Both the position numbers and the translations under genes were made by a program. The notes beneath the pieces were generated by a model. The model did no database searches, was not told the origin of the DNA, and saw only the letters and a list, made by a program, of their open reading frames with translations. A DNA stretch of 64,000 bases, taken from positions 1 to 64,000 of the forward strand of contig JACPKR010000003.1 in assembly GCA_016186945.1 (NCBI GenBank). Reading direction: 5' to 3'. Source of the stretch: Deltaproteobacteria bacterium. Lineage in GTDB: Bacteria; Bdellovibrionota_B; Oligoflexia; Oligoflexales; Bog-1112. Position 1 is the stretch's first letter. Every line of letters starts with the position of its first letter. Positions 8,260 through 39,078 of this stretch are shown here, piece by piece.

Positions 8260-8491
8260 ATCTATCCTTGCTCATGAGTCATCGGCTGTTTGGACTTATG
8301 CCTTGAAAAGGCTATTTGGGTGGACTACAAACTTTTACGAATTTTCAAATAAAATTATGGCATCTGAAAATGTAAATCATGCTCAATTAAACGTTCTTTT
8401 TTTGTTTTTTGTGTTGGAAATTTTTTCGCAATACAATTATGGTAACGGTAATTTTCTGTTCTCCTGTTCTGTACAATAAGGGGGCATGAGC

Positions 8492-9925
8492 ATGAAACGC
8501 ACTTGGTTATACAATCTCTTGTTGTGTAGTGGCTTGACCTTCAACATATCCTCCTTTGCCTTCATCTCGGAATTCAGCAAGGAAAGTCAGGAGTGCATGA
8601 CCTGTCACAAAAAGGAGAGCCTCGGTATCTATCAGCAGTGGGGGGCTTCGAAGCACTACCGCGCGAAGGTGGGCTGTTTCGAGTGTCACGAGGCCAAGGT
8701 GGGAGACAAGGATGGCTTCCTTCATCACAAGCAACGTATTTCTGTGATCGTCAGTCCTAGTGATTGTGGGCGATGCCATGAAAAAGAAGTGAAGGAATTT
8801 GCTGGCAGTCATCATGCCCAGGCTGCTCGCATCCTCGGCTCGCTTGACAATACCCTTGCAGAAGTCGTTGAGGGGAACAGAGGCTTTAAGACTCCTGGCT
8901 TTCCGCATGGTGTTTCTGCCGCCGCTGTCAATGGCTGTTGGCAATGTCACGGAGCTGAAGTGAAGGTGCACGCTGACGGCAAACTCGACCCTGCCACGTG
9001 GCCAAACACGGGCATAGGACGCATCAACCCTGACGGTTCCAGCGGATCCTGCTCCGCCTGCCATAGTCGCCATGTGTTCTCCGTTGCCCAGGCGAGGCAG
9101 CCTGACAATTGCGGAAAATGCCATATGGGTCCGGATCATCCGCAAATTGAAATTTACAACGAATCTAAGCACGGTATAGCTTTCCACGCAAATGTAGACA
9201 AAATGAATCTGGAAAATTCCAAATGGGTTGTGGGACAGGATTACAACGCTGCTCCTACATGTGCGACCTGTCACATGTCGGCAACAAGCAAGCAGGGGGT
9301 CACACACGACGTAGGCATGAGGATTTCCTGGAACAACCGACCTGCCAAATCTGTCAGGCCAGAAATTTCAGACAAAAAGCTCGGCTTGCCTGGTGCCTTG
9401 GTCACCTGGCAGACGAGACGTAAGAACATGGAAGACGTTTGCCTAAACTGTCACAATCAGAACTATATCGACGCGTTTTACCTTCAATACGATGGGTTGA
9501 TCGATCTGTACCATGAAAAATTCGCCGACCCAGGGCTAAAACTCATGGCAAGTGCGAAACCTCTGCTCAAACCGGTGGAGTTCAGTAATAAAGTCGACTT
9601 CGTCTGGTTCGAACTCTGGCATCATGAAGGACGACGCGCCCGCCACGCTGCCTCCATGATGGCACCAGACTATACACACTGGCACGGTACCTACGAAATC
9701 GCTCGCAACTTTTATTCGGAATTCATCCCTGAACTTGAGGAGCTTGCAGAAAGAAATCTGCATTCCCCAGACGCTGTTAAAAAAGCAGCTGCAGAAAAAC
9801 TTAAGAAAGAAATAGATGAAACCCTCAATACAGGGAATCATCAATGGTACTTGGGGAAAATGTCGAAAGAAGATAAAGAAGAAAGGGAAAAGCGAACAAA
9901 AGAGTTCAACAGTCGCTATAAATAG
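8492..9925 (+). CDS. Octaheme cytochrome c of the hydroxylamine oxidoreductase (HAO) type
   Basis: Periplasmic 477-aa multiheme cytochrome. A signal peptide (about 1-24) is followed by eight CXXCH motifs at about 35, 62, 92, 149, 187, 207, 257 and 317; none is CXXCK, which separates it from octaheme nitrite reductases. HAO-family features include the GSHHAQAARILGSL block, PGFPHGVS before heme 4 (CWQCH, the active-site heme of HAO), THDVGMRISWNNRP after heme 7, and a C-terminal DYTHWHGTYE at 393-402. Tyr394 and Tyr401 are candidates for the cross-linking Tyr of true HAO, but alignment is needed. I chose ATG 8492 over 8486 because the AAGGGGG Shine-Dalgarno is correctly spaced only for 8492. 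It is first of a four-gene operon; oxidative or reductive direction is unknown. Confidence 0.85.
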   Translation: MKRTWLYNLLLCSGLTFNISSFAFISEFSKESQECMTCHKKESLGIYQQWGASKHYRAKVGCFECHEAKVGDKDGFLHHKQRISVIVSPSDCGRCHEKEVKEFAGSHHAQAARILGSLDNTLAEVVEGNRGFKTPGFPHGVSAAAVNGCWQCHGAEVKVHADGKLDPATWPNTGIGRINPDGSSGSCSACHSRHVFSVAQARQPDNCGKCHMGPDHPQIEIYNESKHGIAFHANVDKMNLENSKWVVGQDYNAAPTCATCHMSATSKQGVTHDVGMRISWNNRPAKSVRPEISDKKLGLPGALVTWQTRRKNMEDVCLNCHNQNYIDAFYLQYDGLIDLYHEKFADPGLKLMASAKPLLKPVEFSNKVDFVWFELWHHEGRRARHAASMMAPDYTHWHGTYEIARNFYSEFIPELEELAERNLHSPDAVKKAAAEKLKKEIDETLNTGNHQWYLGKMSKEDKEEREKRTKEFNSRYK

Positions 9926-9946
9926 ACACAAGTTCGGCGGTTGGCT

Positions 9947-10453
9947 ATGAAGTTTAGAAAATCGTCTCTGCTGGCTTTCACTGTCATCTTCCCTGTTTGG
10001 CTATCAGCTGGAACGATCAGCACAACAGAAAGGGAAGGGCTGATAGAGTCTTTTCCCTGTCAGGACTGCCACGACAAAATCGGGTTGAAAAAAGAACGAA
10101 AGAAGGAAAGTCCCCCACCTTCCCACACTCGCATAGAATTCTCCCACATGCGGCAGGTGAAAGATTGCCAGCTTTGTCACAACCCAGAGAACCTTAACAC
10201 CCTCATCACACTCGATGGCAGGACGGTGTCGTTTAATCAATCGTATGAACAATGCGTAAACTGTCACGGGGAGAAGGGTCGAGATTGGGATCTTGGCATT
10301 CACGGCAAACAAGTGGGAAGCTGGCAAGGCGATAAGACACGTCTTAATTGCACTGACTGTCACAACCCCCATAAGCCAAAGTTCCCGGAGATGACGCCTC
10401 TTCCACCTCCGCCTTTTCCGAAGTTCGGAATTAGAAAGAAGCACGAACCATGA
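9947..10453 (+). CDS. Small tetraheme cytochrome c
   Basis: Exported 168-aa cytochrome with an N-terminal signal peptide (KFRKSSLLAFTVIFPVWLSA) and four CXXCH motifs: CQDCH, CQLCH, CVNCH and CTDCH. It starts 21 bp after the octaheme gene and its TGA overlaps the ATG of the FeS gene, so it lies inside the operon. By analogy with NrfB it probably shuttles electrons between the membrane FeS/NrfD pair and the octaheme enzyme. The ATG at 9947 is preferred over an in-frame TTG at 9941. The proline-rich C-terminus (TPLPPPPFPKF) is unusual. Confidence 0.8.
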   Translation: MKFRKSSLLAFTVIFPVWLSAGTISTTEREGLIESFPCQDCHDKIGLKKERKKESPPPSHTRIEFSHMRQVKDCQLCHNPENLNTLITLDGRTVSFNQSYEQCVNCHGEKGRDWDLGIHGKQVGSWQGDKTRLNCTDCHNPHKPKFPEMTPLPPPPFPKFGIRKKHEP

Positions 10454-11403
10454 ACTTACTAGCGCTTCTTAAATCCAAGCTTTTAGCAGGACGAGTGAAC
10501 AAAGCTGCGCCTGAGCTTAAACTTTCCCGGCGCAGTTTATTGAAAGGTTCTCTCGGTGGGGCTGCGGTAGCTGCCGCAGCGAGCAGTACCCTCACCTCAA
10601 AAGCGACAGCTTTTTCGTGGGACCAGTTTTTTCAAAAGCACTACAAGGAACTCACCCCAGAGGAAAAAAAGAAAGTCTTTGCCCGTATTGAAGGGGAACT
10701 CTCCCAAAAATACAAACGCAAGGTCACAGTCGACGACCCACAACCCATTGAAGGCACAAAGTTTGTCTACGCCCTCGACCTCTCCAAGTGCAACGGGAAC
10801 CGACGCTGCGTCGAAGCGTGTGTCAAAGAAAACAACCTCGATCCCAGTCTTGCTTACATAAAAGTTCTGGAAATGGACAGAGGCGGGCTTAAACTCGATG
10901 CTGGGGACCGCTACTACGATAGGGCCACCGTCCCCGCTAAAGATAAAATCTACCTGCCCGTGCAATGCAACCAATGCGACAACCCGCCCTGCGTAAAAGC
11001 CTGTCCGGTCGAAGCTACCTGGAAAGAAGATGACGGCATCGTCGTGATCGACTACGACTGGTGCATCGGCTGCCGCTACTGCCAGGTTGCGTGCCCCTAT
11101 GAAGCCCGGCATTTCAACTTCAAAACTCCCGAGGTGCCTGCAGAACGCCTGAATCCTAATCAGTCCTACCTGAGCAACAGAATCAGACAAAAAGGAGTCA
11201 TGGAAAAATGTACCTTCTGCTTGCATCGCACAAGGAAAGGCCAATACCCAGCATGCCTCGAAGCATGCCCCACTGGCGCTAGAAAATTTGGAAATATCCT
11301 TGATCCAGACAGTGAGGTTTCTCAAATTCTCAAGACAAAGGTCGTCTTCGTTCTCAAAGAAGAGTTGAATACGATTCCCAGTTTCTACTACTATTTTGGA
11401 TAA
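10450..11403 (+). CDS. Tat-exported iron-sulfur protein (NrfC/HybA-like)
   Basis: The 317-aa electron-transfer subunit has a Tat signal (SRRSLLKGSLGGAAVAAAAS, about 27-46) and a polyferredoxin-type domain with four Cys groups. Group II is CNQCDNPPCVKACP, group III CIGCRYCQVACP, group IV CTFC with CLEACP. Group I reads CNGNRRCVEAC (residues 114-124): the second Cys of the usual CxxCxxCxxxC is Asn117, so this site may hold a [3Fe-4S] cluster or none. In NrfC, HybA and PsrB-type proteins this subunit docks on an NrfD-like membrane protein, which is the next gene. Start and stop are tightly packed with both neighbours. Confidence 0.88.
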   Translation: MNLLALLKSKLLAGRVNKAAPELKLSRRSLLKGSLGGAAVAAAASSTLTSKATAFSWDQFFQKHYKELTPEEKKKVFARIEGELSQKYKRKVTVDDPQPIEGTKFVYALDLSKCNGNRRCVEACVKENNLDPSLAYIKVLEMDRGGLKLDAGDRYYDRATVPAKDKIYLPVQCNQCDNPPCVKACPVEATWKEDDGIVVIDYDWCIGCRYCQVACPYEARHFNFKTPEVPAERLNPNQSYLSNRIRQKGVMEKCTFCLHRTRKGQYPACLEACPTGARKFGNILDPDSEVSQILKTKVVFVLKEELNTIPSFYYYFG

Positions 11404-11409
11404 ATTGTC

Positions 11410-12624
11410 ATGCGTACATACATAAGATACTGGATAGAAATGCTGGCTTGCCTAGGGAAGGGAAATCGAACCTATTATCTCTGGATGGGGTTTCTTTCGG
11501 TTCTCATCCTTTCGGGCATTTATGCTTATTCTCATCAACTGCGTTTTGGCTTTATCGTTACGAATTTGTCCAATCAGGTTAGCTGGGGGGCCTATATTGC
11601 CAACTTTACGTTCCTTGTCGGCGTTGCTGCGGCAGCAGTTCTCTTAGTCGTCCCAACATACGTATACGAGCGACCAGAGATCAAAAAGGTAGTGATCATC
11701 GGTGAATTGCTAGCCCTTGCATCAATCGTTATGTGTCTGCTCTTTGTAACCGTTGACCTGGGCAATCCGCAGCGTTTCATTCACATGATTCCACCCTTTG
11801 GAAAGATAAACTTTCCTGAGTCCATCCTGGCATGGGATGTGATCGTTCTTACCGGGTATTTGCTGCTCAACCTTCACATACCCGGCTACCTGCTCTACCA
11901 GAAATATCGTAATCGTCCCGCATCCAAAAGATTCTATATGCCCTTTGTCTATGTTTCGATGATTTGGGCCATCAGTATCCACACAGTCACGGCCTTTCTC
12001 TTCAGTGGTTTCGGCAGCCGACCCTTCTGGAACAGCGCCATCCTGGCGCCACGCTTCCTTATCAGTGCCTTTGCTGCCGGTCCTGCGCTGATCATCATCA
12101 TCTTCCACTTCATGAACAAACTGTCTTCACAGAAGGTAGAAAAAAGTGCGACCGAGTTCTTCTCTCGCATCATTGCTTACACACTTCCCACTAACCTATT
12201 CCTGTTCATGTGTGAATTGTTCAAGGAATTCTATTCGGACACCTTGCATAATCTTTCGGCTCATTACCTGCTCTTTGGAATTCATGGGCACTTTATGATT
12301 GCCCCCTATGTCTGGGCTGCGATCGTTTTCCAAGTGTCGTCATCCTTTGTCTTTATCTTTCCTGCATTCAGGCGCAGGCACAACTTACTCCTGGCTGCCT
12401 GTGGTCTTGCCTTCCTCGGCATCTGGATAGAGAAAGGCATGGGCTTGATAGTGCCCGGCTTCCTTCCCACGCCCCTTGGCGATCTCGTTGAGTACACGCC
12501 GTCTCTCGTGGAATTCTTCGTTTGCTTGGGAATCTGGTCTGTCGGGGCCTTTCTCTTCACCGCCTTTTCCAAGGTGGCCATCGCCATAAACACGGGAAAA
12601 CTTGCCAAGAAAAATCTGCCTTAG
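11410..12624 (+). CDS. NrfD/HybB-like quinone-interacting membrane subunit
   Basis: The 404-aa polytopic membrane protein has about ten predicted helices, the NrfD/PsrC/HybB superfamily plan. It lacks cofactor-binding Cys/His motifs, as expected. The first helix begins at about residue 22 (YYLWMGFLSVLILSGIYAY); the GNPQRFIHMI loop and the HGHFMIAPYVWA helix are typical. It exchanges electrons between the quinone pool and the FeS subunit encoded just upstream. It is last in the octaheme operon, with a 126-bp gap before the lipoprotein genes and no strong terminator visible there. Confidence 0.88.
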   Translation: MRTYIRYWIEMLACLGKGNRTYYLWMGFLSVLILSGIYAYSHQLRFGFIVTNLSNQVSWGAYIANFTFLVGVAAAAVLLVVPTYVYERPEIKKVVIIGELLALASIVMCLLFVTVDLGNPQRFIHMIPPFGKINFPESILAWDVIVLTGYLLLNLHIPGYLLYQKYRNRPASKRFYMPFVYVSMIWAISIHTVTAFLFSGFGSRPFWNSAILAPRFLISAFAAGPALIIIIFHFMNKLSSQKVEKSATEFFSRIIAYTLPTNLFLFMCELFKEFYSDTLHNLSAHYLLFGIHGHFMIAPYVWAAIVFQVSSSFVFIFPAFRRRHNLLLAACGLAFLGIWIEKGMGLIVPGFLPTPLGDLVEYTPSLVEFFVCLGIWSVGAFLFTAFSKVAIAINTGKLAKKNLP

Positions 12625-19472: not shown

Positions 19473-20717
19473 TCAATGCTTGGATAGCGCTGTTAAAAGA
19501 AGAGGGTCACCAATGCATAGGAGAGGAACTTTCCTGGATGAGCGCGCAAACATGAGGAAAAATACTCCGACAAATCCTAACATCACCCCAAATTCAATCC
19601 ACGGAAAGATCCAGGTCGCCGCATCAGCTAGCTCAGGAATGACGAATAGAAGATAGTTCACCCACTGAGCAGCAAGCACCAAACAACACACCGGGATCGT
19701 TAAATAAGCCGTCCATTTGGCTGGCTTTGCCACAAGAAGGCTGAAAGGGACAAGAAAACTTACAAAGGGTGCTGCTACCAACAATTTCAACCAAGGCTGC
19801 TCCATGCGCGTCAGGAAAAAGGATGTTTCCTCAGGAATGTTCGTATACCAATACGTCAAAACGTGAGAGTACGCCAGGTAGGCATAAAAAGCCGTAAATC
19901 CGAACAGCAACTTACCAATATCATGAAACTGTTGCCTCTGTATAAACTGCCCGAGCGGACCGCCCTTAAAAGCAAACATAAGAATCATAGTCAGGGCAAA
20001 AAGCGTCTGCATCATGATGGAAAATGAGAGTCCTCCCCAAAGAGTTGAAAACCATGTGGGTGACAAGGACATGACAAGATCGAAGGATAGAAGGGAATAC
20101 AAAAAAGCATAAGCTACTAGAACGGGTGCGGACCAATGCCGCAAAGCTTTCCGAGACTGTTCGCCAACGATGGCCGCCTTTTCAAGTTCCCCTGAAAGGA
20201 CAACGGTGTCCGCTGCCGTCGTCTTCTTCCAGTGCCAACGAGCAAGCGTCAGAATCACAAGCAGCGCGATGACATCTCTGACAATCATGAAGTCTGCTTG
20301 TAACCAGACATTCTTTCCATGGTACGCCGCAATCATCTGAGGGTCCGCGATCCACTTATAGACTTTCCCTGCCTGGAAGAGGTCCAGTTTGATGCACGCA
20401 AAAAAGGCAATGAAAAGGACGACCGCTACAGGAAGAAAAGCGACAAACGACTCGTGAATCCTTTTTATCGGCCTTCCCCAACTTGCTCCTATGAGGTCCT
20501 GCATATTTCCAAACGCCACACCTCCAAGGGCTATGGAGAAAAAGAACATCAGATTGAAGAGTAAACTTCCCCAAGTTCTTGTTTCTTCACCCACGACCAT
20601 CCCCGCAATAAAGGTGAGAACACCTGCGAGGACAAGAAAAATCAGTCCCCCCCGTGCTGTGGAGGGCATGTCCCAATAGAAGCTTTTTCGCTGATTATAC
20701 AATTCGCTAAGTTTCAT
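19473..20717 (-). CDS. actF: Alternative complex III subunit ActF
   Basis: The 414-aa integral membrane subunit has about ten helices. ActF is a shorter homologue of ActC in quinol:electron acceptor oxidoreductase (ACIII). Seen: an N-terminal cytosolic helix (KLSELYNQRKSFYWDMP), many hydrophobic segments, LMSLSPTWFSTLWG, and the VNYLLFVIPELADAATWIFP region. In known complexes it packs against ActC and may contribute a proton path. It is the last act gene, 9 bp after actE. In many genomes cytochrome oxidase genes follow; here an outer-membrane protein follows instead. Confidence 0.9.
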   Translation of the reverse strand: MKLSELYNQRKSFYWDMPSTARGGLIFLVLAGVLTFIAGMVVGEETRTWGSLLFNLMFFFSIALGGVAFGNMQDLIGASWGRPIKRIHESFVAFLPVAVVLFIAFFACIKLDLFQAGKVYKWIADPQMIAAYHGKNVWLQADFMIVRDVIALLVILTLARWHWKKTTAADTVVLSGELEKAAIVGEQSRKALRHWSAPVLVAYAFLYSLLSFDLVMSLSPTWFSTLWGGLSFSIMMQTLFALTMILMFAFKGGPLGQFIQRQQFHDIGKLLFGFTAFYAYLAYSHVLTYWYTNIPEETSFFLTRMEQPWLKLLVAAPFVSFLVPFSLLVAKPAKWTAYLTIPVCCLVLAAQWVNYLLFVIPELADAATWIFPWIEFGVMLGFVGVFFLMFARSSRKVPLLCIGDPLLLTALSKH

Positions 20718-20726
20718 AAAATGCTC

Positions 20727-21248
20727 TTACCCCTCTTGCAAGGAACGTAGATAAAGGACGATTTGCCAACGTTCGACAGCCGACGTATTGTGGCCCTGTT
20801 CTGGCATAATGGCGCCACCGAATGTTATGCGATGGAAGAAAAATCCATCCTTTCGATTCTTGTATAGATCAAGTGTCAGATCAGGAGGGCGAACAAATCT
20901 ATCGACAATAGCTCCCCCACCCTTTGCATCAAGCCCATGGCAGGCGGCTCCGCAGAATGTTTCAAACAAATGTTTCCCCTGCGCAACATGTTCAGCCTGG
21001 TTGGATGCTCCCCTAAGTGGGTTTTCCATCACACTTTCCGCCTCTTCCGCAGTCGCTGGATAGAGAATGGCATCCCGAGCGACCGAACCCTCGGGTGGGT
21101 CCAGGTAATTTCCTTGTGTTTTTATCCCTGGAGTGTCTGCCATGTCGGGGAAATACTGCAATTTAGTCTGACTCGGGTCTCCCTTACAGTTCCACAAGTT
21201 CAAGATCAGTCCTAGGAAAAATATATTGCGAATCATCGGAGTCCTCAT
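20727..21248 (-). CDS. actE: Alternative complex III monoheme cytochrome c ActE (CXXXCH heme site)
   Basis: The 173-aa protein has a lipoprotein signal (LGLILNLWNC, Cys21), suiting the membrane-tethered periplasmic monoheme subunit that hands electrons on to an oxidase or soluble carrier. The heme motif is Cys99-Gly-Ala-Ala-Cys103-His104: three residues separate the cysteines instead of the usual two. Met147 in GGAIMPEQGH is the probable sixth ligand. It overlaps nothing but lies 1 bp after actD, within the operon. Confidence 0.88.
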   Translation of the reverse strand: MRTPMIRNIFFLGLILNLWNCKGDPSQTKLQYFPDMADTPGIKTQGNYLDPPEGSVARDAILYPATAEEAESVMENPLRGASNQAEHVAQGKHLFETFCGAACHGLDAKGGGAIVDRFVRPPDLTLDLYKNRKDGFFFHRITFGGAIMPEQGHNTSAVERWQIVLYLRSLQEG

Positions 21249-21249
21249 A

Positions 21250-21780
21250 CTATTCGGAATGGTGAACCTCGTCCGCTCCCCACTGCCTTAACAAATGCGC
21301 CTGTTCACTATCTACGCCCACACCTGGGACGAAAACCACAAACCGATCGTTCGTTATCGCATTATGTCTGATTTTTCCTCGTGGGTCGGGCAATCTTCCC
21401 ATGATGATCATGCCAATAATCGTAGCAAGTGCTCCGAATAAAACCATCAGCTCAAAACCAAACACAAAGTAGGCGGGCAGTGAATAGAAGCCCCCCATTT
21501 TGCCACCCACAACGATAGGCCAATCCCAATCCATTCCTATGGGCATACCAAAACCTGTTGCTATCCCGGCCAACGCTCCTACAAGTGTGAACCAGCGCAC
21601 TTCGCTAAAGCCATAGACCTTCTCCCCATGTTCCATGAGTTCATGATAGGACGTTGGTGAATAAATCACATGGTCGCGAAACTGCTTATTCCTGTGCATA
21701 TGTTTGACCGCGTCGCTTACTTTGTCCAGATAACGAAAGACAGCAACGATTCCCTTACGTTCTTTTTTTGGATTAGCCAT
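21250..21780 (-). CDS. actD: Alternative complex III subunit ActD
   Basis: The 176-aa DUF3341-type protein has two transmembrane helices in a hairpin (WFTLVGALAGIATGFGMPI and YFVFGFELMVLFGALATIIG). ActD sits beside ActC in the complex; its exact role is structural or unresolved. The conserved CPY-like region is represented here by VIYSPTSYHELMEHGEKVYGF at the N-terminal side, following a basic tract. Its start overlaps the actC stop by 8 bp. Confidence 0.88.
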   Translation of the reverse strand: MANPKKERKGIVAVFRYLDKVSDAVKHMHRNKQFRDHVIYSPTSYHELMEHGEKVYGFSEVRWFTLVGALAGIATGFGMPIGMDWDWPIVVGGKMGGFYSLPAYFVFGFELMVLFGALATIIGMIIMGRLPDPRGKIRHNAITNDRFVVFVPGVGVDSEQAHLLRQWGADEVHHSE

Positions 21781-23257
21781 GAGCCTCTCCTTCTTTCAGA
21801 GACTTCAATTTATCACCGCTCAAAGGTTTCGGCATAATCAGTTTAAGCTCCGACATCGAGACCAGAGGGAAGAAACGTGCGAAAATCAACATCCAGGTAA
21901 AGAACCAACCAAAGCTTCCCACCGTTATGGTAATTTCAACTAAAGATGGCTCGTAATGGCCCCAAGAGCCTGGCACGAAATCTTCAACCAGACTGGAGAT
22001 GATAATGTTATACCTTTCAAACCACATACCCACGTTGATCAAGACAGTGACAACGAAAGCGACAGCAATATTGTTGCGAATCCTTTTCGACCAGAAAGCT
22101 AGAGGAAAGACACAGTTGCAAAACACCATCGTCCAAAAATAGAACGCGTAAGGTCCACTGGCTCGTTTGACAAAGATAGCCCACTCATATTCGTTCCCAC
22201 TATACCAAGCTATGAAAAATTCAATACTATAAGCGTAGGATACGATCGTGGACGTAAGAAGGGTCAACTTAATAAGAGCTTCCAGATGTTCCTTCCTTAT
22301 GAATTGCTCTAACTGGAACATTTTCCTGAAGGGGACCACCAAGGTGTACACCATCGCACAACCGGAAAGGATCGCTCCCGCAACGAAATAGGGCGGGAAA
22401 ATGGTTGAGTGCCATCCCGGTTGTGCAGACATAGCAAAGTCCCAAGACACGATGGAGTGAACAGACAAGACGAGGGGTGTAGCCAGAGCGGCCAGAAGAG
22501 CATACCCCACCTCGTAATGATGCCACTGCCGTACCGTCCCCGTCCAACCAAAGGACATCATGCCATAGATCAAACGTCTGATACCTTTCACCCGGTCACG
22601 GATGGAAGCCAAGTCTGGGACCAAGCCCATGTACCAGAAAAGAAGTGAGACAGTTAAATATGTCGAAATAGCGAAGACGTCCCAAATCAGCGGAGAACGA
22701 AAATTGACCCACAGATTGTTCGTGTTGGGAAGCGGTAACATCCAATACGCTGCCAGCCAAACACGACCCACGTGTATGAGTGGGAAAAGGCCCGCAGTCA
22801 TGACAGCGAAAACGGTCATGGCTTCCGCACTTCGGTTTATGCTGTTCCTCCACTTGGCGCGGAAGAGAAATAAAATCGCTGAAATCAGGGTCCCGGCGTG
22901 ACCAATACCGACCCAGAAAACGAAGTTTGTAATGAACACGCCCCAATAAACGGGGCTGTTCAGTCCGCTAACACCCATGCCGACATTGATCATATAAACC
23001 CAAGCAGCAATACCAATTGCCATACACAGTACGGAAAACGCAAGGGCTATATAGTAGGTCTTCGAAGGCTTGTCGATCCCCAGAAGAATGCTATCGTTCA
23101 CATCAGAAATCGACCTCTGCCAAACGATCTCGTCACTCATCAAGTCCTTACCACCTTTCTCAGTCACTGTTCTCATTTCCTTCGTTGTCAGAGATTCGCC
23201 TCGACCATCTGGACCCTCCGTCACTAAACGGGGGGCCTGCTCTTCTTTCCTATCCAT
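21773..23257 (-). CDS. actC: Alternative complex III subunit ActC (NrfD-like)
   Basis: The 494-aa integral membrane subunit has about ten helices and is the NrfD-family protein carrying the quinol-binding site of ACIII. An N-terminal soluble stretch (1-60) precedes the first helix. Typical features: NSPVYWGVFITNFVFWVGIGH, HVGRVWLAAYWMLPLPN, SIVSWDFAMSAQPGWHSTIF and NIIISSLVEDFVPGSWG. The start overlaps the actB stop by 8 bp. Electrons pass from quinol here to the FeS domain of ActB. Confidence 0.93.
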   Translation of the reverse strand: MDRKEEQAPRLVTEGPDGRGESLTTKEMRTVTEKGGKDLMSDEIVWQRSISDVNDSILLGIDKPSKTYYIALAFSVLCMAIGIAAWVYMINVGMGVSGLNSPVYWGVFITNFVFWVGIGHAGTLISAILFLFRAKWRNSINRSAEAMTVFAVMTAGLFPLIHVGRVWLAAYWMLPLPNTNNLWVNFRSPLIWDVFAISTYLTVSLLFWYMGLVPDLASIRDRVKGIRRLIYGMMSFGWTGTVRQWHHYEVGYALLAALATPLVLSVHSIVSWDFAMSAQPGWHSTIFPPYFVAGAILSGCAMVYTLVVPFRKMFQLEQFIRKEHLEALIKLTLLTSTIVSYAYSIEFFIAWYSGNEYEWAIFVKRASGPYAFYFWTMVFCNCVFPLAFWSKRIRNNIAVAFVVTVLINVGMWFERYNIIISSLVEDFVPGSWGHYEPSLVEITITVGSFGWFFTWMLIFARFFPLVSMSELKLIMPKPLSGDKLKSLKEGEAHG

Positions 23258-26200
23258 GGTGACCGTGTTCCTCTTGCGTTCCTTCTTCCAGCGTTACTTC
23301 CGCCAGATAGCTAACGTTGGGGAGGGTCTTCAACCCGAAGTGGTCGTGCTCTGGCGCACCGCCTAACATGAGATAGGCACGCCCATCATCCCTAAGTTGC
23401 GCAACACGGCTTGTCGGATCTTTTAGATTCCCGAAGACAATAGCGTTCATCGGACAGGTCTGTTGACAAGCTGTCTGAACTTCACCGTCACGGACCTCAC
23501 GATTCTGGCCCTTGGCGTTATGCTTCGCATCTGTAATGCGTTGCAGGCAGAACGAACACTTTTCCATCACTCCTTTGGTGCGCACGGTCACGTCGGGATT
23601 CGTAGCACGAGGATTGCGATCCTGCAGGCGCTCGCCCATTTCCCCCCAACGATGAGTCCACCAGTTGAAGCGCCTGACTTTGTATGGGCAGGCGTTCGCA
23701 CAATAGCGGGTACCTACACACCTATTGTAAGTCATCGCATTGAGGCCTTCCGGGTCATGCGTCGTTGCATAGACCGGACAGACACCCTCGCATGGCGCAT
23801 GATTGCAATGCTGACACATGACGGGCTGTACGCTGACCTGCGGATTGTTGAGATCCCCACGGAAGTAGCGATCGAGCCTAATCCAGTGCATTTCACGTCC
23901 CAAAAGGATCTGCTCACGTCCGGCTTGAGGAACGTTATTCTCAATACCACATGCGGCCATGCAGGCCCCACATCCGTTACAACGATCGAGGTCGATTGAC
24001 ATACCCCATCGGTGCTTGGACTCTTCGTCCAGTTTGGGGAAGAGGTCAGGAACGTCATCCAGTCCCCTTTTATGCGTCGCCTTTTTCAGGACTTCCTTCA
24101 TCGGCATAGTTTTGATGATGTCAGCTCGTCCCTCCATATCGTGAACCAACTTCTGCATGGCCGCCAGTCGGAACCACTTTCCTGTCGCTTTGATTTCGAC
24201 GGGAAACACGCTCGTGACGGGTTGTCCAGAAAGAGGATCGGAAGCTTTCTCCACGAGAGTCAGTGGATTGACGCCGTTAAGGTAGCTGATCGTGCTTCTT
24301 TTATCTTCATGACCATTTCCACGAGGAATAACGACCGTATCAGGATGCAGTCCGGGAAGAGGATAAACTGCCAGCTCCACACTTCCACCAGGCCCCGTCA
24401 CGCTCACAAGTTGATTTCGCTGCCATCCGAACTTCTTCGCAGTATGGGGATTGACGGCAAGCCAAGTATCCCAGGCAATGGACGTAAGTGCGTCCCCGAT
24501 TTCCTGAAGAATAGGAAGATGCGCCCCCCTTCCCTCCACAAGGCGATGGTCCAGAGGAGCGGCCAGTACAAATTTACCCACACTCGGGGCCTTCAAAGTA
24601 CGGAAATGCTGCTGCACGTCTTTAACATCATTCGCAGCACGTATCGACATCTTGCCTGTAAAACCCCGCCTTATAACTGCCTTGAAAAACGTTTCGTAAG
24701 CAATCGACGGTCTGATGAGTTCATAGATCGCATGCCACTTCTTTTTTAAATAAGCCCTGTAGTCCTGATAAGGGAGGTTTTTCTCAACACTAGCGAGGAC
24801 CCACAGGAGGATGTCTTCCGCCTGCCGGCTATTTTTCGTCGGACGTACCGCCGGCTGACGCATCGACCAGAAACCAGCTATAGATTGCTCATCACCCCAG
24901 GACTCTAAATTATGGTTACCCGGCAATACGACATGGGCAACTCGGTCTGTCTCAACAGGAAAGGACTGAATGGAAACGATGAGAGGAATTTTGGAAAACA
25001 AGTCACCTAATTTCCAGCTCTGCGGTACCGAAAAGAGAGGGTCGCTGTCGATAACGAAGAGAACATCGAGCTTGCCAGCCTCTTCGAAACGCACAAGGTC
25101 ACCGTTTCGCACGGGTGACTTCGCCCAACCCTCATCAAAAAAGATCGTCTTTCCAAAGGCACCGCTGAGCGTGTTTGCCATGATCGCGGCCAACTGCAGA
25201 AGCGTTGCGTTCTGATCGAAATTGGCACCACTGCCCGCCATTACGATAGAAGGTTTTTCGATCAGTTCTTGCGCAATCCCGTCGAAGACGTCTCGCCCTA
25301 CACCGATCGTTTCATAGGCATTGAGTAGGACGGCTTCCTGCGCTTGCAAAGTTGCGGCTACATCGCTACGAAATTTCTGAGTACCCTTTGACGCAGGATT
25401 TTCATAAAGCGCTTTGACAAGAAGAAGAGCAACGACACTTTCGTTGCCGGCGGGGATGACATGACGCTCATCTGCGGTTGAACCTGTCAAAGTCAAGTTG
25501 GATTCAAACTGCACGAATTTGTTGCGTCGCCCCCTTCTTACGGAACGGCCCTGAGAGAATCCTTTCGAATGCGAGACAGGAGAAAGTCCGGATACCTGAA
25601 AGTCGGTCCCAACTCCTACGATGAAAGCCGCCTCGCTAAGTTCCATCCTTGGCAAGTCAGCATGTCCAAAGCTAAGGCGATACGCTTCAGAAACAGAACT
25701 ATAAAGAGAGTTCGCCTCCCAAGTGTAAAGCTCCTTCTCGGAAGAACCTAGACGCTTGAGAACCTCCTCGAAGAACTCATGACGATGGCCTGTCGCTCCT
25801 CCTGTGAAGATACCCACTTTTTTAGCATTCTTCACCCCCGCTATAACTTTCGCCAAGGCCTCGTCCCATGTGACATCGCCCCACTTATCCCCATCTCGGA
25901 ACTGAGGAGACTGCAAGCGTTCAGGATGATAAAGCCCCTGTATTTCCGCCTGGCCTAAAGCACAGAGACCTCCCTGGTTGAGGGGATGTTCGGAGTTCCC
26001 TTCTAACTTTACAGGACGACCTTCTCTGGTTTTGACAGAGATGCCACAACCTGCCGGACAACTTCCACACGTCGAAGCGTAGTGTGTCGCCACCCCAGGG
26101 ACCTGGTCGATCGGCTGCTTGACGTAGGCGATAGCCTTTTCCGCAGGTCGACGTACGCAGGATGCCGCACCAGCAACCGCACTTAAACTAAACAAGCGCA

Positions 26201-26363
26201 TAAAGTCACGCCTGTCGACGGGAAGGATTTCCCCCTCTTTTTTCCCACTGGAGGAATCTTTTCCTTCCGCAATTTCGGGAAGGACTTCCTCGGCAGCCAT
26301 ATAATGGGGGGATCGGGAAGATTGAGACACTTGGTTTACGTTTGTTTCTAATCTCTCGGTCAT
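23250..26363 (-). CDS. actB: Alternative complex III ActB (fused molybdopterin-type and FeS domains)
   Basis: The 1037-aa periplasmic subunit is translocated by Tat (Arg51-Arg52 in DRRDFMRLFSLSAVAGAASC). Residues about 90-740 form a complex-iron-sulfur molybdoenzyme fold (ActB1) that in ACIII lacks molybdenum cofactor; residues about 780-1030 form the polyferredoxin domain (ActB2) with CNGCGACMAAC near 795, CQHCNHAPCEGVCP, CVGTRYCANACP (one Cys replaced by Thr, typical of the [3Fe-4S] site) and CSFC. Some genomes encode B1 and B2 separately; here they are fused. The gap to actA (168 bp) holds a family B repeat, an unusual break in an otherwise overlapping operon. Confidence 0.95.
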   Translation of the reverse strand: MTERLETNVNQVSQSSRSPHYMAAEEVLPEIAEGKDSSSGKKEGEILPVDRRDFMRLFSLSAVAGAASCVRRPAEKAIAYVKQPIDQVPGVATHYASTCGSCPAGCGISVKTREGRPVKLEGNSEHPLNQGGLCALGQAEIQGLYHPERLQSPQFRDGDKWGDVTWDEALAKVIAGVKNAKKVGIFTGGATGHRHEFFEEVLKRLGSSEKELYTWEANSLYSSVSEAYRLSFGHADLPRMELSEAAFIVGVGTDFQVSGLSPVSHSKGFSQGRSVRRGRRNKFVQFESNLTLTGSTADERHVIPAGNESVVALLLVKALYENPASKGTQKFRSDVAATLQAQEAVLLNAYETIGVGRDVFDGIAQELIEKPSIVMAGSGANFDQNATLLQLAAIMANTLSGAFGKTIFFDEGWAKSPVRNGDLVRFEEAGKLDVLFVIDSDPLFSVPQSWKLGDLFSKIPLIVSIQSFPVETDRVAHVVLPGNHNLESWGDEQSIAGFWSMRQPAVRPTKNSRQAEDILLWVLASVEKNLPYQDYRAYLKKKWHAIYELIRPSIAYETFFKAVIRRGFTGKMSIRAANDVKDVQQHFRTLKAPSVGKFVLAAPLDHRLVEGRGAHLPILQEIGDALTSIAWDTWLAVNPHTAKKFGWQRNQLVSVTGPGGSVELAVYPLPGLHPDTVVIPRGNGHEDKRSTISYLNGVNPLTLVEKASDPLSGQPVTSVFPVEIKATGKWFRLAAMQKLVHDMEGRADIIKTMPMKEVLKKATHKRGLDDVPDLFPKLDEESKHRWGMSIDLDRCNGCGACMAACGIENNVPQAGREQILLGREMHWIRLDRYFRGDLNNPQVSVQPVMCQHCNHAPCEGVCPVYATTHDPEGLNAMTYNRCVGTRYCANACPYKVRRFNWWTHRWGEMGERLQDRNPRATNPDVTVRTKGVMEKCSFCLQRITDAKHNAKGQNREVRDGEVQTACQQTCPMNAIVFGNLKDPTSRVAQLRDDGRAYLMLGGAPEHDHFGLKTLPNVSYLAEVTLEEGTQEEHGHHG

Positions 26364-26392
26364 GGTTAACTATCAAACTCCCAGGTTTGAAG

Positions 26393-26501
26393 CCCCTTTT
26401 CAAAAAACTTCAATATCTAAAGTTTTTTGGGGGGAGGCGTGGAGGGGAACTTTTTTTCAAAAAAGGTCCTCTCCACAAATTCTTTTTCTCAAATACTATA
26501 G
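26393..26501 (+). repeat. Family B copy (right two-thirds) inside the act operon
   Basis: The stretch contains CCCCTTTTCAAAAAACTTC, AAAGTTTTTTGGGGGG, the hairpin GTGGAGGGGAAC.../...GGTCCTCTCCAC and the right end AAATACTATAG. It lies between actA and actB, which are transcribed through it on the minus strand, so its hairpins appear in the operon mRNA. Confidence 0.85.
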
Positions 26502-26531
26502 CTGCGCAAAAGACCTTGCTTTTCGCAGACG

Positions 26532-27122
26532 TTAGAAATGACAAGTATTACAAGTCACCGGAGCGGTGGTCAAAGCAGGCTTCCCCTCTTTCGCCGGTTC
26601 CTTTACATTATTATGACAGTCGACACACCAGCCCATCTGGAGGGGCGCCCACTGTTCTGCTGTAAACATGCCCTGGACTTGCCCATGGCAGGATTGACAC
26701 TCCAACACTGCTTTGCCATCTTTGTCCTTTGCCAAAACATGCACCCTGTGGCTGAACCTTACAAAGTCAGGAAGGTCGTGGACCTTCACCCACTTGATGG
26801 GTTCATTGTTGTCGAACATTTCTTTCATCTTTTTGATAGGCTCAGCACTCGTGTTAACAATCTTGTGGCACCCCATGCAGGTGTTGAGAGGAGGCAGCCC
26901 AGCTGTCTTCGACCTGCGTGCGGCCGAGTGACAATACTCGCAAGGAATCTTGCGGTCCGTCGCATGCATACGATGGTTGAAGTCAATGGGTTGCTTAGGA
27001 TGGTATCCTGTACCAAAAAGGCTTTGAGTCGAATTGTCAACCGAGTCTCCGGGAGTATAGCCCCACCAAGAGTAGGCCGATGAACTTAGAAAACAACTTA
27101 AGACAAGAATGCGCAGGAACAA
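26532..27122 (-). CDS. actA: Alternative complex III pentaheme cytochrome c ActA
   Basis: The 196-aa periplasmic multiheme subunit has an N-terminal signal/anchor (FLRILVLSCFLSSSAYSWWG) and five CXXCH motifs: CEYCH, CMGCH, CQSCH, CVDCH and CNTCH. It accepts electrons from the ActB FeS chain. The frame stays open to 27368, but that extension translates a family A repeat. I set the start at TTG 27122 because an AAGGAGG site lies 7 bp upstream and the signal peptide begins immediately. First gene of actABCDEF. Confidence 0.9.
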   Translation of the reverse strand: MFLRILVLSCFLSSSAYSWWGYTPGDSVDNSTQSLFGTGYHPKQPIDFNHRMHATDRKIPCEYCHSAARRSKTAGLPPLNTCMGCHKIVNTSAEPIKKMKEMFDNNEPIKWVKVHDLPDFVRFSHRVHVLAKDKDGKAVLECQSCHGQVQGMFTAEQWAPLQMGWCVDCHNNVKEPAKEGKPALTTAPVTCNTCHF

Positions 27123-27129
27123 ATGTAAG

Positions 27130-27136
27130 CCTCCTT
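27130..27136 (-). promoter_or_regulatory. Shine-Dalgarno deciding the actA TTG start
   Basis: AAGGAGG on the minus strand is 7 bp upstream of TTG 27122. None of the upstream in-frame ATGs (27257, 27233, 27230, 27224) has such a site, so they are rejected as starts. Confidence 0.7.
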
Positions 27137-27239
27137 GCTGATTTCCACCACTTACTTGAAAATAAAATACGAGGCATAAAATCAAAGAATGAATTATCAC
27201 AATTGTTTTGCGTGAGCCAATCATTTTCATCATATGTTC

Positions 27240-27379
27240 GTGAGGCGTAAGCCGCATGTTGTGAAAAGGGAGAGGTGGGTTTGGGGGGGCAAGTGAAGCG
27301 TCGCCTCCCCCGGATTTCTGGGAGGAACCAGCTGCGCAGTTTCCTCCAAACCACCTCCTTGCAACCAAGGAAGGATCAC
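27240..27379 (+). repeat. Family A copy, right end degenerate, between actA and uvrB
   Basis: It begins GTGAGGCGTAAGCC, the left end form of family A, and contains the core GGAGGAACCAGCTGCGCAG with CCAAACCACCTCCTTGC. The right terminal repeat is degenerate (AACCAAGGAAGGATCAC) and no target duplication is visible. It ends 2 bp before the uvrB ATG, so the uvrB ribosome site (AAGGAAGG) lies in or against the element. Confidence 0.8.
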
Positions 27380-37252: not shown

Positions 37253-37314
37253 TTTTATAGGGGATCGTCGTGTCACCACAGGACCGCTATTCTAATTTAA
37301 GAAGAGGTTTCGTC

Positions 37315-39078
37315 GTGAGAACAAAATTTTATTTGTTTTTACTTTGTATTATCACGGACATAGTCATCTTGTCCTGTAAAACCAGAACAGCCAGAAAACC
37401 ATCGGCCGCCGCAAAAGAAGCCGCGTTGGCGGAAAAAGGAGCTTGTCCCGAACCTGACGTGGGACTCTTCGGCCCACGAGAACCTATGAGCCTTGCTGGG
37501 CTACAACTCGCCTCTGGTGATGTCAAGGTTAGCTCAACCGATTATAAACCTAACGCATTTACCACCCGCATCACTGTCGATCCCTTCGCTCTTGGCCGTA
37601 AAAACAATGAAGGATTGGGCCTAAGCTTGGTCGAGGGAGGCGCTGGCATTGAAGTTCCTCCCGTCTTTGTCATGTGGAAAGCCTGTCAGAAAACAGGGCA
37701 ACAGTGTTCCAATAACGGCAATTGGGCAAAATCTTACGACTTCACGATAAACGACCTCAGCAAGCTTCCCACAGGTGTTCTGACTGTCAGCATCAGAGCA
37801 TGTGTGGAAGATCTTGCGTTGGTGGTTCCCCAAGAACAAAGTGCGCTAACCAATTCGTGCACATCCGAAGATCCTTGCTACTGCGGAAAAGAAGTCAAAG
37901 TTCCTTACCTGCAAAAAGACTTCGCTTCTTCCGATGCAGACCTGAACAAACTTGCACAAGATATCCAAAATGCCAAAGCAGTCATTTTCCAGAGAGCTAA
38001 CGCCTATATCCAAAGTGCCAAATCTTACCTGCGAAGTTGCTCTCAAGATGCCGGGACGACCCCGTATGAGTATGCGAGAAATATAGCGTCTTATACTTCT
38101 GACGAACTTGCATATCTTACGGATAGCCTCGGCTACGCGATGATCGATTTCACTAATTCTCTTATAAAGGAGGCTAGCACAGGTGGAGAACTTGGACTTG
38201 CTGAAGGAACGCCCTCTGCCTGCTTCAAAGGACTTCCTCCTCCGACGCCGGTCGCGGAACGAGGGGACTATTCCACCCCGAGCGGTGAAGCGGAACCGTT
38301 TTCTCCCGGAGAAACACCTGGAGAAACAGAAGTAACAGACATAACGAAACCCATCCCCGAGCCGCGAGAACCCAGCGGGGAAGAGAAAGAGCTCGTAACA
38401 GGTCAAACACCCGCACCAGTCGCTTCAAGCACTCAGCAGGCCCTCCAGCAAGTCTCCCAAGTCCTCTTCGGCTTCGGCGCCACAGCGATCGTCCTTGGAG
38501 CTGTGGTTTTGGTCACCTCTGTGGTAGTCGCAGGGACGGGAGTGGCGTTAGATGTAGCAGTAGCGGTTGAGGACATTGCGGCTGCGAGGTCGGCGGCGGT
38601 GGAGGCGGATGCGAGGGCGAGATCGGCGCCGATGGTGGCAGCACCGGCGGGTACGTCAGGAGGTAGGTCGGTGGAGGCGGATGCGAGGGCGAGATCGGCG
38701 CCGATGGTGGCAGCACCGGCGGGTACGTCAGGAGGTAGGTCGGTGGACAGGATAAGGGCGGAGCCAGCGGGGACGAAGGTGGTGGCAGGTGGAACGGCGT
38801 GGGAGCCGAGAAAGGCTGCACTGGAATCAAGCATGATTCTGGAAAAAGCAGGAATAAAGGGTGCGTTAGTGTCGCTTGCAATGATATTGAGCGGTGTGGC
38901 GGCGGTAGCTGTTGGTAGTATTGGTTATTCTGGTTTTGCTGCTGGTCTTGCAGAGGGGACGGTTTGTGGGAATTTTGCCAGTGTTGCTGTGCAGAACGAA
39001 ACGTCGCTCAAGCAGGCTGTGGACGTTTTGGTCGATATCGAGAATCAGTTTGACGCGCGTTTAGCGGTTCTTCGTTAA
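37315..39078 (+). CDS. Large lipoprotein with 24-aa tandem repeat
   Basis: The 587-aa product has a lipoprotein signal (RTKFYLFLLCIITDIVILSC, Cys21). A mature domain with paired Cys (CEED-like CTSEDPCYC near 190) is followed by a helical region, a Pro/Glu-rich linker, a hydrophobic segment (ATAIVLGAVVLVTSVVVAG), two copies of VEADARARSAPMVAAPAGTS plus GGRS, and a second hydrophobic segment near the C-terminus. The start is GTG 37315, supported by AAGAGG 8 bp upstream; the ATG frame from 37270 would lack a proper signal. Function unknown; the repeat region is distinctly GC-richer than its neighbours. Confidence 0.75.
   Translation: MRTKFYLFLLCIITDIVILSCKTRTARKPSAAAKEAALAEKGACPEPDVGLFGPREPMSLAGLQLASGDVKVSSTDYKPNAFTTRITVDPFALGRKNNEGLGLSLVEGGAGIEVPPVFVMWKACQKTGQQCSNNGNWAKSYDFTINDLSKLPTGVLTVSIRACVEDLALVVPQEQSALTNSCTSEDPCYCGKEVKVPYLQKDFASSDADLNKLAQDIQNAKAVIFQRANAYIQSAKSYLRSCSQDAGTTPYEYARNIASYTSDELAYLTDSLGYAMIDFTNSLIKEASTGGELGLAEGTPSACFKGLPPPTPVAERGDYSTPSGEAEPFSPGETPGETEVTDITKPIPEPREPSGEEKELVTGQTPAPVASSTQQALQQVSQVLFGFGATAIVLGAVVLVTSVVVAGTGVALDVAVAVEDIAAARSAAVEADARARSAPMVAAPAGTSGGRSVEADARARSAPMVAAPAGTSGGRSVDRIRAEPAGTKVVAGGTAWEPRKAALESSMILEKAGIKGALVSLAMILSGVAAVAVGSIGYSGFAAGLAEGTVCGNFASVAVQNETSLKQAVDVLVDIENQFDARLAVLR
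38599..38742 (+). repeat. Perfect 72-bp tandem duplication inside lipoprotein gene
   Basis: Units 38599-38670 and 38671-38742 appear identical (start GTGGAGGCGGATGCGAGGGC) and encode 24 residues each. A third unit begins (GTGGA) but breaks. Length polymorphism by slippage would keep the frame, because 72 is a multiple of 3. Confidence 0.9.

Follow-up and report, generated by a model that had tools for sequence, protein, structure and literature searches.

We analysed a 64,000-nucleotide stretch from a Deltaproteobacteria bacterium (contig JACPKR010000003.1, positions 1 to 64,000), hereafter the window, and a run of four adjacent genes in it, A to D. We judge, at a rough probability of 0.7, that ABCD is a quinol-linked nitrite (and/or hydroxylamine) reductase, which would be NrfABCD-like in its working and stand outside that family. 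Its product is most likely ammonium, with hydroxylamine or nitric oxide (NO) also possible, and our confidence in the product is lower than in the class of function.

In the proposed path, D would oxidise inner-membrane quinol, possibly with energy conservation, and the iron-sulfur (FeS) protein C would pass the electrons from D to the tetraheme cytochrome B. B would then reduce A in the periplasm, so the overall order would be quinol-D-C-B-A. A, a presumably reductive HAO-family octaheme without the tyrosine cross-link at the catalytic heme, would reduce nitrite. ABCD would thereby take the place of NrfABCD, with another catalytic protein and an input of the DsrJOP type.

The four genes and the octaheme subunit

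The genes are packed in window 8492-12624, all on the + strand. A preliminary description, made from the letters of the window, had reported an octaheme, a tetraheme, an FeS protein with a twin-arginine translocation (Tat) motif and an NrfD-like protein here, and its coordinates, heme counts and motifs were all confirmed. The features are as follows.

A, 8492..9925, + strand: 477 aa, eight CXXCH; predicted catalytic subunit, a periplasmic octaheme cytochrome c of the HAO superfamily with an N-terminal signal-like segment
A region, about residues 182-217, 9035..9142, + strand: contains the distal pair Asp215-His216 along with hemes 5 and 6
A residues 385-401, HAASMMAPDYTHWHGTY, 9644..9694, + strand: the stretch in which oxidative HAOs have their P460 cross-link Tyr, with Trp397 here
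B, 9947..10453, + strand: 168 aa, four CXXCH; periplasmic tetraheme c-type cytochrome, which would carry electrons from C to A
C, 10450..11403, + strand: 317 aa, 15 Cys, Tat motif RRSLLKG; ferredoxin-type FeS subunit, DsrO/NrfC/TtrB-like
D, 11410..12624, + strand: 404 aa, modelled with ten long helices; predicted quinol dehydrogenase, a DsrP-like integral membrane protein of the NrfD superfamily

Between A and B lie 21 bp, C begins 4 bp before the end of B, and 6 bp separate C from D. An alternative start of A, an ATG at 8486 two codons upstream, is also possible. A promoter and terminator scan gave no more sites than in shuffled sequences. The locus is not a product of chance, because the eight heme motifs of A are invariant in 40 aligned homologues and the four genes are linked across phyla.

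Sequence and fold both place A in the HAO superfamily. It matches Pfam Multi-haem_cyto at 86 bits, and its sequence matches in PDB include IhOCC of Ignicoccus hospitalis (4QO5, E 1.8e-43), which is the best, the Kuenenia reducing HAO-like protein (6H5L, 6.4e-19) and NeHAO (1FGJ, 1.5e-18). IhOCC, also the best structure match, and other HAO-family structures top the Foldseek and VIA-align lists for the AlphaFold model of A, and the eight best VIA-align rows are all HAO-family, with Z from 9.0 down to 6.3. The model is weak (pLDDT 64, probably because hemes and alignment depth are wanting) and supports the fold class only. The eight CXXCH are invariant also in 69 aligned family members, and the NeHAO distal pair D267/H268 corresponds to Asp215/His216 of A, both invariant in the 40 homologues.

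Other multiheme families fit poorly. A was tried as an ONR- or NrfA-like enzyme and the candidate was rejected, the ONR and NrfA structures ranking well below the HAO ones in both Foldseek and VIA-align. NrfA models give A 15-20 bits, and A has eight CXXCH and no pentaheme/CXXCK make-up.

In a tree of 66 proteins, named Campylobacterota epsilon-Hao sequences not among them, the HAO family divides in two halves with an SH-aLRT of 100. One half holds NeHAO, HOX and the Scalindua HDH/HAOr types. The other holds the clade of A, IhOCC-like proteins, the NapC-linked HAOs of Desulfobaculum and Desulfosarcina plasmids and a second Scalindua subfamily. Hence the preliminary assignment of A as an HAO relative stands for the superfamily, but its place is in the IhOCC/NapC-linked half and not with NeHAO, HOX and HDH. 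The tree came from a quick search with midpoint rooting and has long branches, so we rely on nothing in it beyond the main split and the compact clade of A.

The cross-link tyrosine separates A from the oxidative enzymes. NeHAO Tyr467, the partner of heme 4 in the cross-link between adjacent subunits, was located in GGWTYTEGWG by counting along the printed sequence, and it aligns on Trp397 of A in a MAFFT alignment with bridging sequences. This alignment replaced a profile-profile one (A1 against A2) that ended before the C-terminal helices, leaving Tyr467 out of reach. Trp397 lies in the motif T395-H396-W397-H398-G399, invariant in the 40 homologues, and the Scalindua HAOr-type proteins likewise have Trp in this column. 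A shift of the alignment by one residue puts His there, still not Tyr; His at the Tyr467 site is reported for reductive HAOs in a recent phylogeny (PMC12758564).

Tyr394 or Tyr401 had been put forward as the P460 tyrosine. Tyr394 is variable, some orthologues having Ile or Trp instead, and Tyr401 is four positions beyond Trp397. Neither is a candidate by position, and the P460 cross-link is, as judged from the alignment, missing in A. NeHAO Tyr334 gave no confident alignment onto A.

Absence of the cross-link tyrosine has been tied to reductive catalysis (PMC3701875, PMC8940962, PMC12758564), and the Trp at this column disfavours the oxidative direction. In that direction ABCD would be a hydroxylamine (or hydrazine) dehydrogenase feeding the quinone pool, as would suit the HAO superfamily of A and the ability of NrfD-type subunits to act as quinone reductases (Qrc, Hyd-2; PMC8076601). 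However, no residue replaces the P460 tyrosine and A falls outside the NeHAO/HOX/HDH half of the tree, so this reverse reaction is very improbable. Thus, of the two directions named in the preliminary description, the quinol-linked reduction of hydroxylamine or nitrite is the likely one.

The membrane module and its known counterparts

D scores 132.7 bits with Pfam NrfD against a cut-off of 25.8. Among the equivalog models, it passes DsrP with 396 bits (cut-off 350) and fails NrfD with 28 (cut-off 347.6), and DsrP is matched by 27 of 27 D orthologues. Its model (pLDDT 79) aligns with ActC of Alternative Complex III at Z 32.9, with a root-mean-square deviation of 3.1 over 365 residues, and with PsrC at Z 19.2. 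C falls just short of DsrO, with 187 bits for a cut-off of 200, and reaches 108 for NrfC, whose cut-off is 377.6. The Tat arginines RR27-28 of C are invariant in orthologues, as are the four CXXCH of B in 26 of its own; B has no close relative among PDB structures.

Since D scores as DsrP and C is nearest DsrO, the membrane module is nearer to DsrJOP-like than to NrfBCD-like. The plan is the same in both, so the earlier label of an NrfBCD-like module was right as to the plan and the quinol-module partners but not as to the DsrO- and DsrP-like families of C and D, the four rather than five hemes of B and the ActC-like fold of D.

In C, the first FeS motif (window 10789-10821, residues 114-124) reads CNGNRRC, its second Cys gone. 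This loss is common to the window, its orthologues in the clade with ABCD gene order and a few others, while most orthologues from loci in BCDA order have CxGCRxC. One cluster of C may accordingly be [3Fe-4S] or have another ligand, going by the motif.

NrfABCD shares with ABCD a periplasmic multiheme reductase, a multiheme carrier, a Tat FeS protein, an NrfD-family quinol dehydrogenase and the same predicted electron path. It differs in having the pentaheme NrfA instead of an octaheme HAO-type A and five hemes in NrfB instead of the four in B, and our C and D are far below the NrfC and NrfD cut-offs. The JOP half of DsrMKJOP shares a DsrP-like membrane protein, a DsrO-like FeS protein and a small multiheme cytochrome. 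In contrast to that system, no DsrMK lies beside ABCD (no DsrMK-like gene was among the flanking open reading frames read in the window), DsrJ has three hemes against four in B, and the output here goes to an octaheme.

The MccACD/SirACD sulfite reductase also has an octaheme whose electrons come through an NrfD-type subunit and an FeS protein, but MccA is from another octaheme family and the catalogue entry has no multiheme carrier like B (PMC8076601). The same catalogue of NrfD-type complexes contains MccACD and NrfABCD, with the HAO type absent (PMC8076601). ABCD could analogously be a reductase of sulfite, tetrathionate or polysulfide, as D is above the curated DsrP cut-off, C is nearest DsrO, and MccACD and NrfABCD show the plan to serve both chemistries. 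Yet the catalytic subunit is HAO-type, all its eight sites are CXXCH and none CX15CH, no MccA chain is among its PDB matches, and the recurrent neighbours are Nap-type genes. We regard a sulfur-compound reductase as improbable.

The closest described locus is in the thermophiles Thermosulfurimonas dismutans and Dissulfuribacter thermophilus, where four genes near nap encode a HaoA homologue, an NrfD-family protein, a 4Fe4S protein and a multiheme cytochrome (PMC5276818, PMC4911364). These bacteria make ammonia from nitrate with no NrfA found, and for the locus the authors suggested a role either in nitrite reduction or in the metabolism of sulfur, so the sulfur option is kept by them too (PMC5276818, PMC4911364). 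The Thermosulfurimonas locus shares the BCDA plan beside nap with our BCDA carriers. It differs in that one of its papers reports no signal peptides, and it comes with no biochemistry. Hence an HAO on a quinol module repeats a plan of octaheme, FeS protein and NrfD subunit seen in MccACD and, in an HAO version, in these two bacteria; the HAO-type A in the place of NrfA stands. The module is not wholly new, but no description of its breadth, its place in the family or its DsrJOP-like composition was found in open-licence papers.

Distribution, gene order and nitrogen genes

A search of a genome collection found 271 stretches encoding relatives of A, and the analysis was made on the best 80, which are 63-77% identical. 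Their hosts are Bdellovibrionota, Myxococcota, Verrucomicrobiota, Planctomycetota (including Scalindua and Brocadiaceae), Gammaproteobacteria, Latescibacterota, Hydrogenedentota, Aminicenantes and others. The co-occurrence to be looked for in relatives was found, all four genes being together at 50 of the 80 loci, 40 in the order BCDA and 10 in the order ABCD. The remaining loci comprise 8 partial ones, 13 with flanks too short to call and 9 with A alone despite ample flanks. In the tree, ABCD order is the mark of one clade, mainly from Bdellovibrionota and Myxococcota, to which the window belongs.

Neither the second Scalindua subfamily nor the IhOCC-like gene of Scalindua adjoins BCD, so the pairing of A with BCD is particular to A's clade. 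Relatives 38-40% identical to A are paired with NapC on plasmids. Such pairs of NapC/NirT and an HAO-family octaheme lie at L109:7281-14256 (a Desulfosarcina ovata plasmid) and L108:7302-9299 (a Desulfobaculum plasmid), and one of them adjoins norR and a nitric oxide reductase.

Nap-type genes recur beside A. A NapA-like gene is present in 28 of the relatives' genomes, and in 14 of these its distance from A is no more than about 6 kb; this linkage spans Verrucomicrobiota, Planctomycetota, Myxococcota and Gammaproteobacteria. Also recurrent nearby are genes like those for NapB, NapG and porins. Of 50 carrier genomes, 34 have NapA-like or NarG, 4 a clear NrfA and 16 Hcp; most of these genomes are metagenome-assembled with completeness unstated, so the absences are soft. 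That Nap/NarG is common and NrfA rare fits a nitrite reductase in the place of NrfA, and the scarcity of Hcp argues against an obligatory hydroxylamine-Hcp route. An amoA search of the 50 carriers gave no match, with the controls silent too, and shows nothing.

A conserved protein of about 163 aa, X163, with no Pfam or NCBIfam match, is encoded near A, often beside Nap genes, at L070:15145-15636 and 23 other loci. It is present in 22 of the 50 carriers. X163 was rejected as a fifth subunit, being absent from the host of the window and from eight ABCD-order genomes checked.

Another close system is the reverse hydroxylamine:ubiquinone redox module (HURM), or epsilon-Hao with the NapC-type CycB, of Nautilia and Campylobacter, together with the Hao of Caldithrix and Deferribacter. 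Shared are a reductive HAO without the cross-link tyrosine, feeding from quinol, closeness to Nap and a proposed role as nitrite reductase (PMC3701875, PMC5317091, PMC6896113). The electron input there is a NapC/NrfH-family cytochrome or unknown, whereas here B-C-D lie beside A; for the nap-linked Hao of Caldithrix and Deferribacter, no BCD-like partners are reported (PMC5317091, PMC6896113). Hcp is a part of the Nautilia proposal but is missing from most carriers here and was not found in the host.

Several points weigh against a respiratory nitrite reductase. We found no biochemistry of A's clade in the open-licence literature, C and D resemble subunits of sulfur metabolism, and TDIS_0606-0609 of Thermosulfurimonas is likened to A's clade by its described gene content, not by sequence. 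Only three of the adjacent NapA-like genes are above the curated NapA cut-off and most are below. Besides the nine loci with A alone, D was found nowhere else in 20 of 23 genomes picked because BCD was not seen beside A; in those genomes A can work with other donors. Moreover, NapA, NarG, NarI, NrfA and Hcp were not detected in the host genome (91% complete). With no nitrate reductase found, nitrite would come from outside, or the role there would be different, for example detoxification.

By detoxification we mean removal of nitrite, NO or hydroxylamine made by neighbours or chemistry, with quinol as the electron source and no role in respiratory growth. The gene content of the host just given would suit it, as would the NapC-linked plasmid relative beside norR. 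In the host's phylum, A occurs at high identity in 1 of 58 genomes, the host only, which suggests acquisition by transfer and is as expected of an acquired accessory trait. However, a dedicated three-protein quinol module and the Nap linkage in many phyla suit respiration better. We therefore consider detoxification unlikely and prefer the quinol-linked nitrite reductase.

Wider reading and further observations

We more tentatively suggest, at somewhat less than even odds, that ABCD is a widespread, horizontally spread respiratory complex, possibly with a proton-translocating quinol module of the DsrJOP/Alternative Complex III type. A major part of the nitrite ammonification by bacteria without NrfA, in Planctomycetota, Verrucomicrobiota, Myxococcota, Bdellovibrionota and others, would then run through it. 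Environmental surveys tend to label such genes just hao and to take them for signs of nitrification or anammox, or for an unassigned nitrite reductase. Octahemes of Phycisphaerae have been proposed as nitrite reductases, and an octaheme hao relative is reported from Poriferisphaera corsica (PMC11266412). If ABCD is a quinol:nitrite reductase, a nitrite path that can be tested is gained for many genomes that carry hao but no NrfA, and the HAO family gains a further type of electron-input partner besides the NapC- and c554-type cytochromes. The locus is also a clean case of one membrane module, of the DsrJOP/NrfBCD type, re-used with another catalytic cytochrome.

Two other octahemes have arrangements of their own. 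In genome G026, of the host's order, an octaheme relative of 36% identity with an N-terminal hydrophobic segment is followed by a 275-aa membrane protein (L138:6938-8987), possibly another arrangement of electron input. In a Scalindua genome (G002, contig C28), an 843-aa frame at L092:127-2655 joins an N-terminal multicopper oxidase (Cu-oxidase_3) to an HAO-family octaheme and may be a copper enzyme-HAO fusion.

Elsewhere in the window, downstream of the module, positions 19473-27368 on the - strand hold an Alternative Complex III-type cluster with molybdopterin/FeS, NrfD-family, cytochrome and multiheme subunits. At 37270-39078, a predicted protein carries the repeated segment EADARARSAPMVAAPAGTSGGRSV in two near-identical copies.

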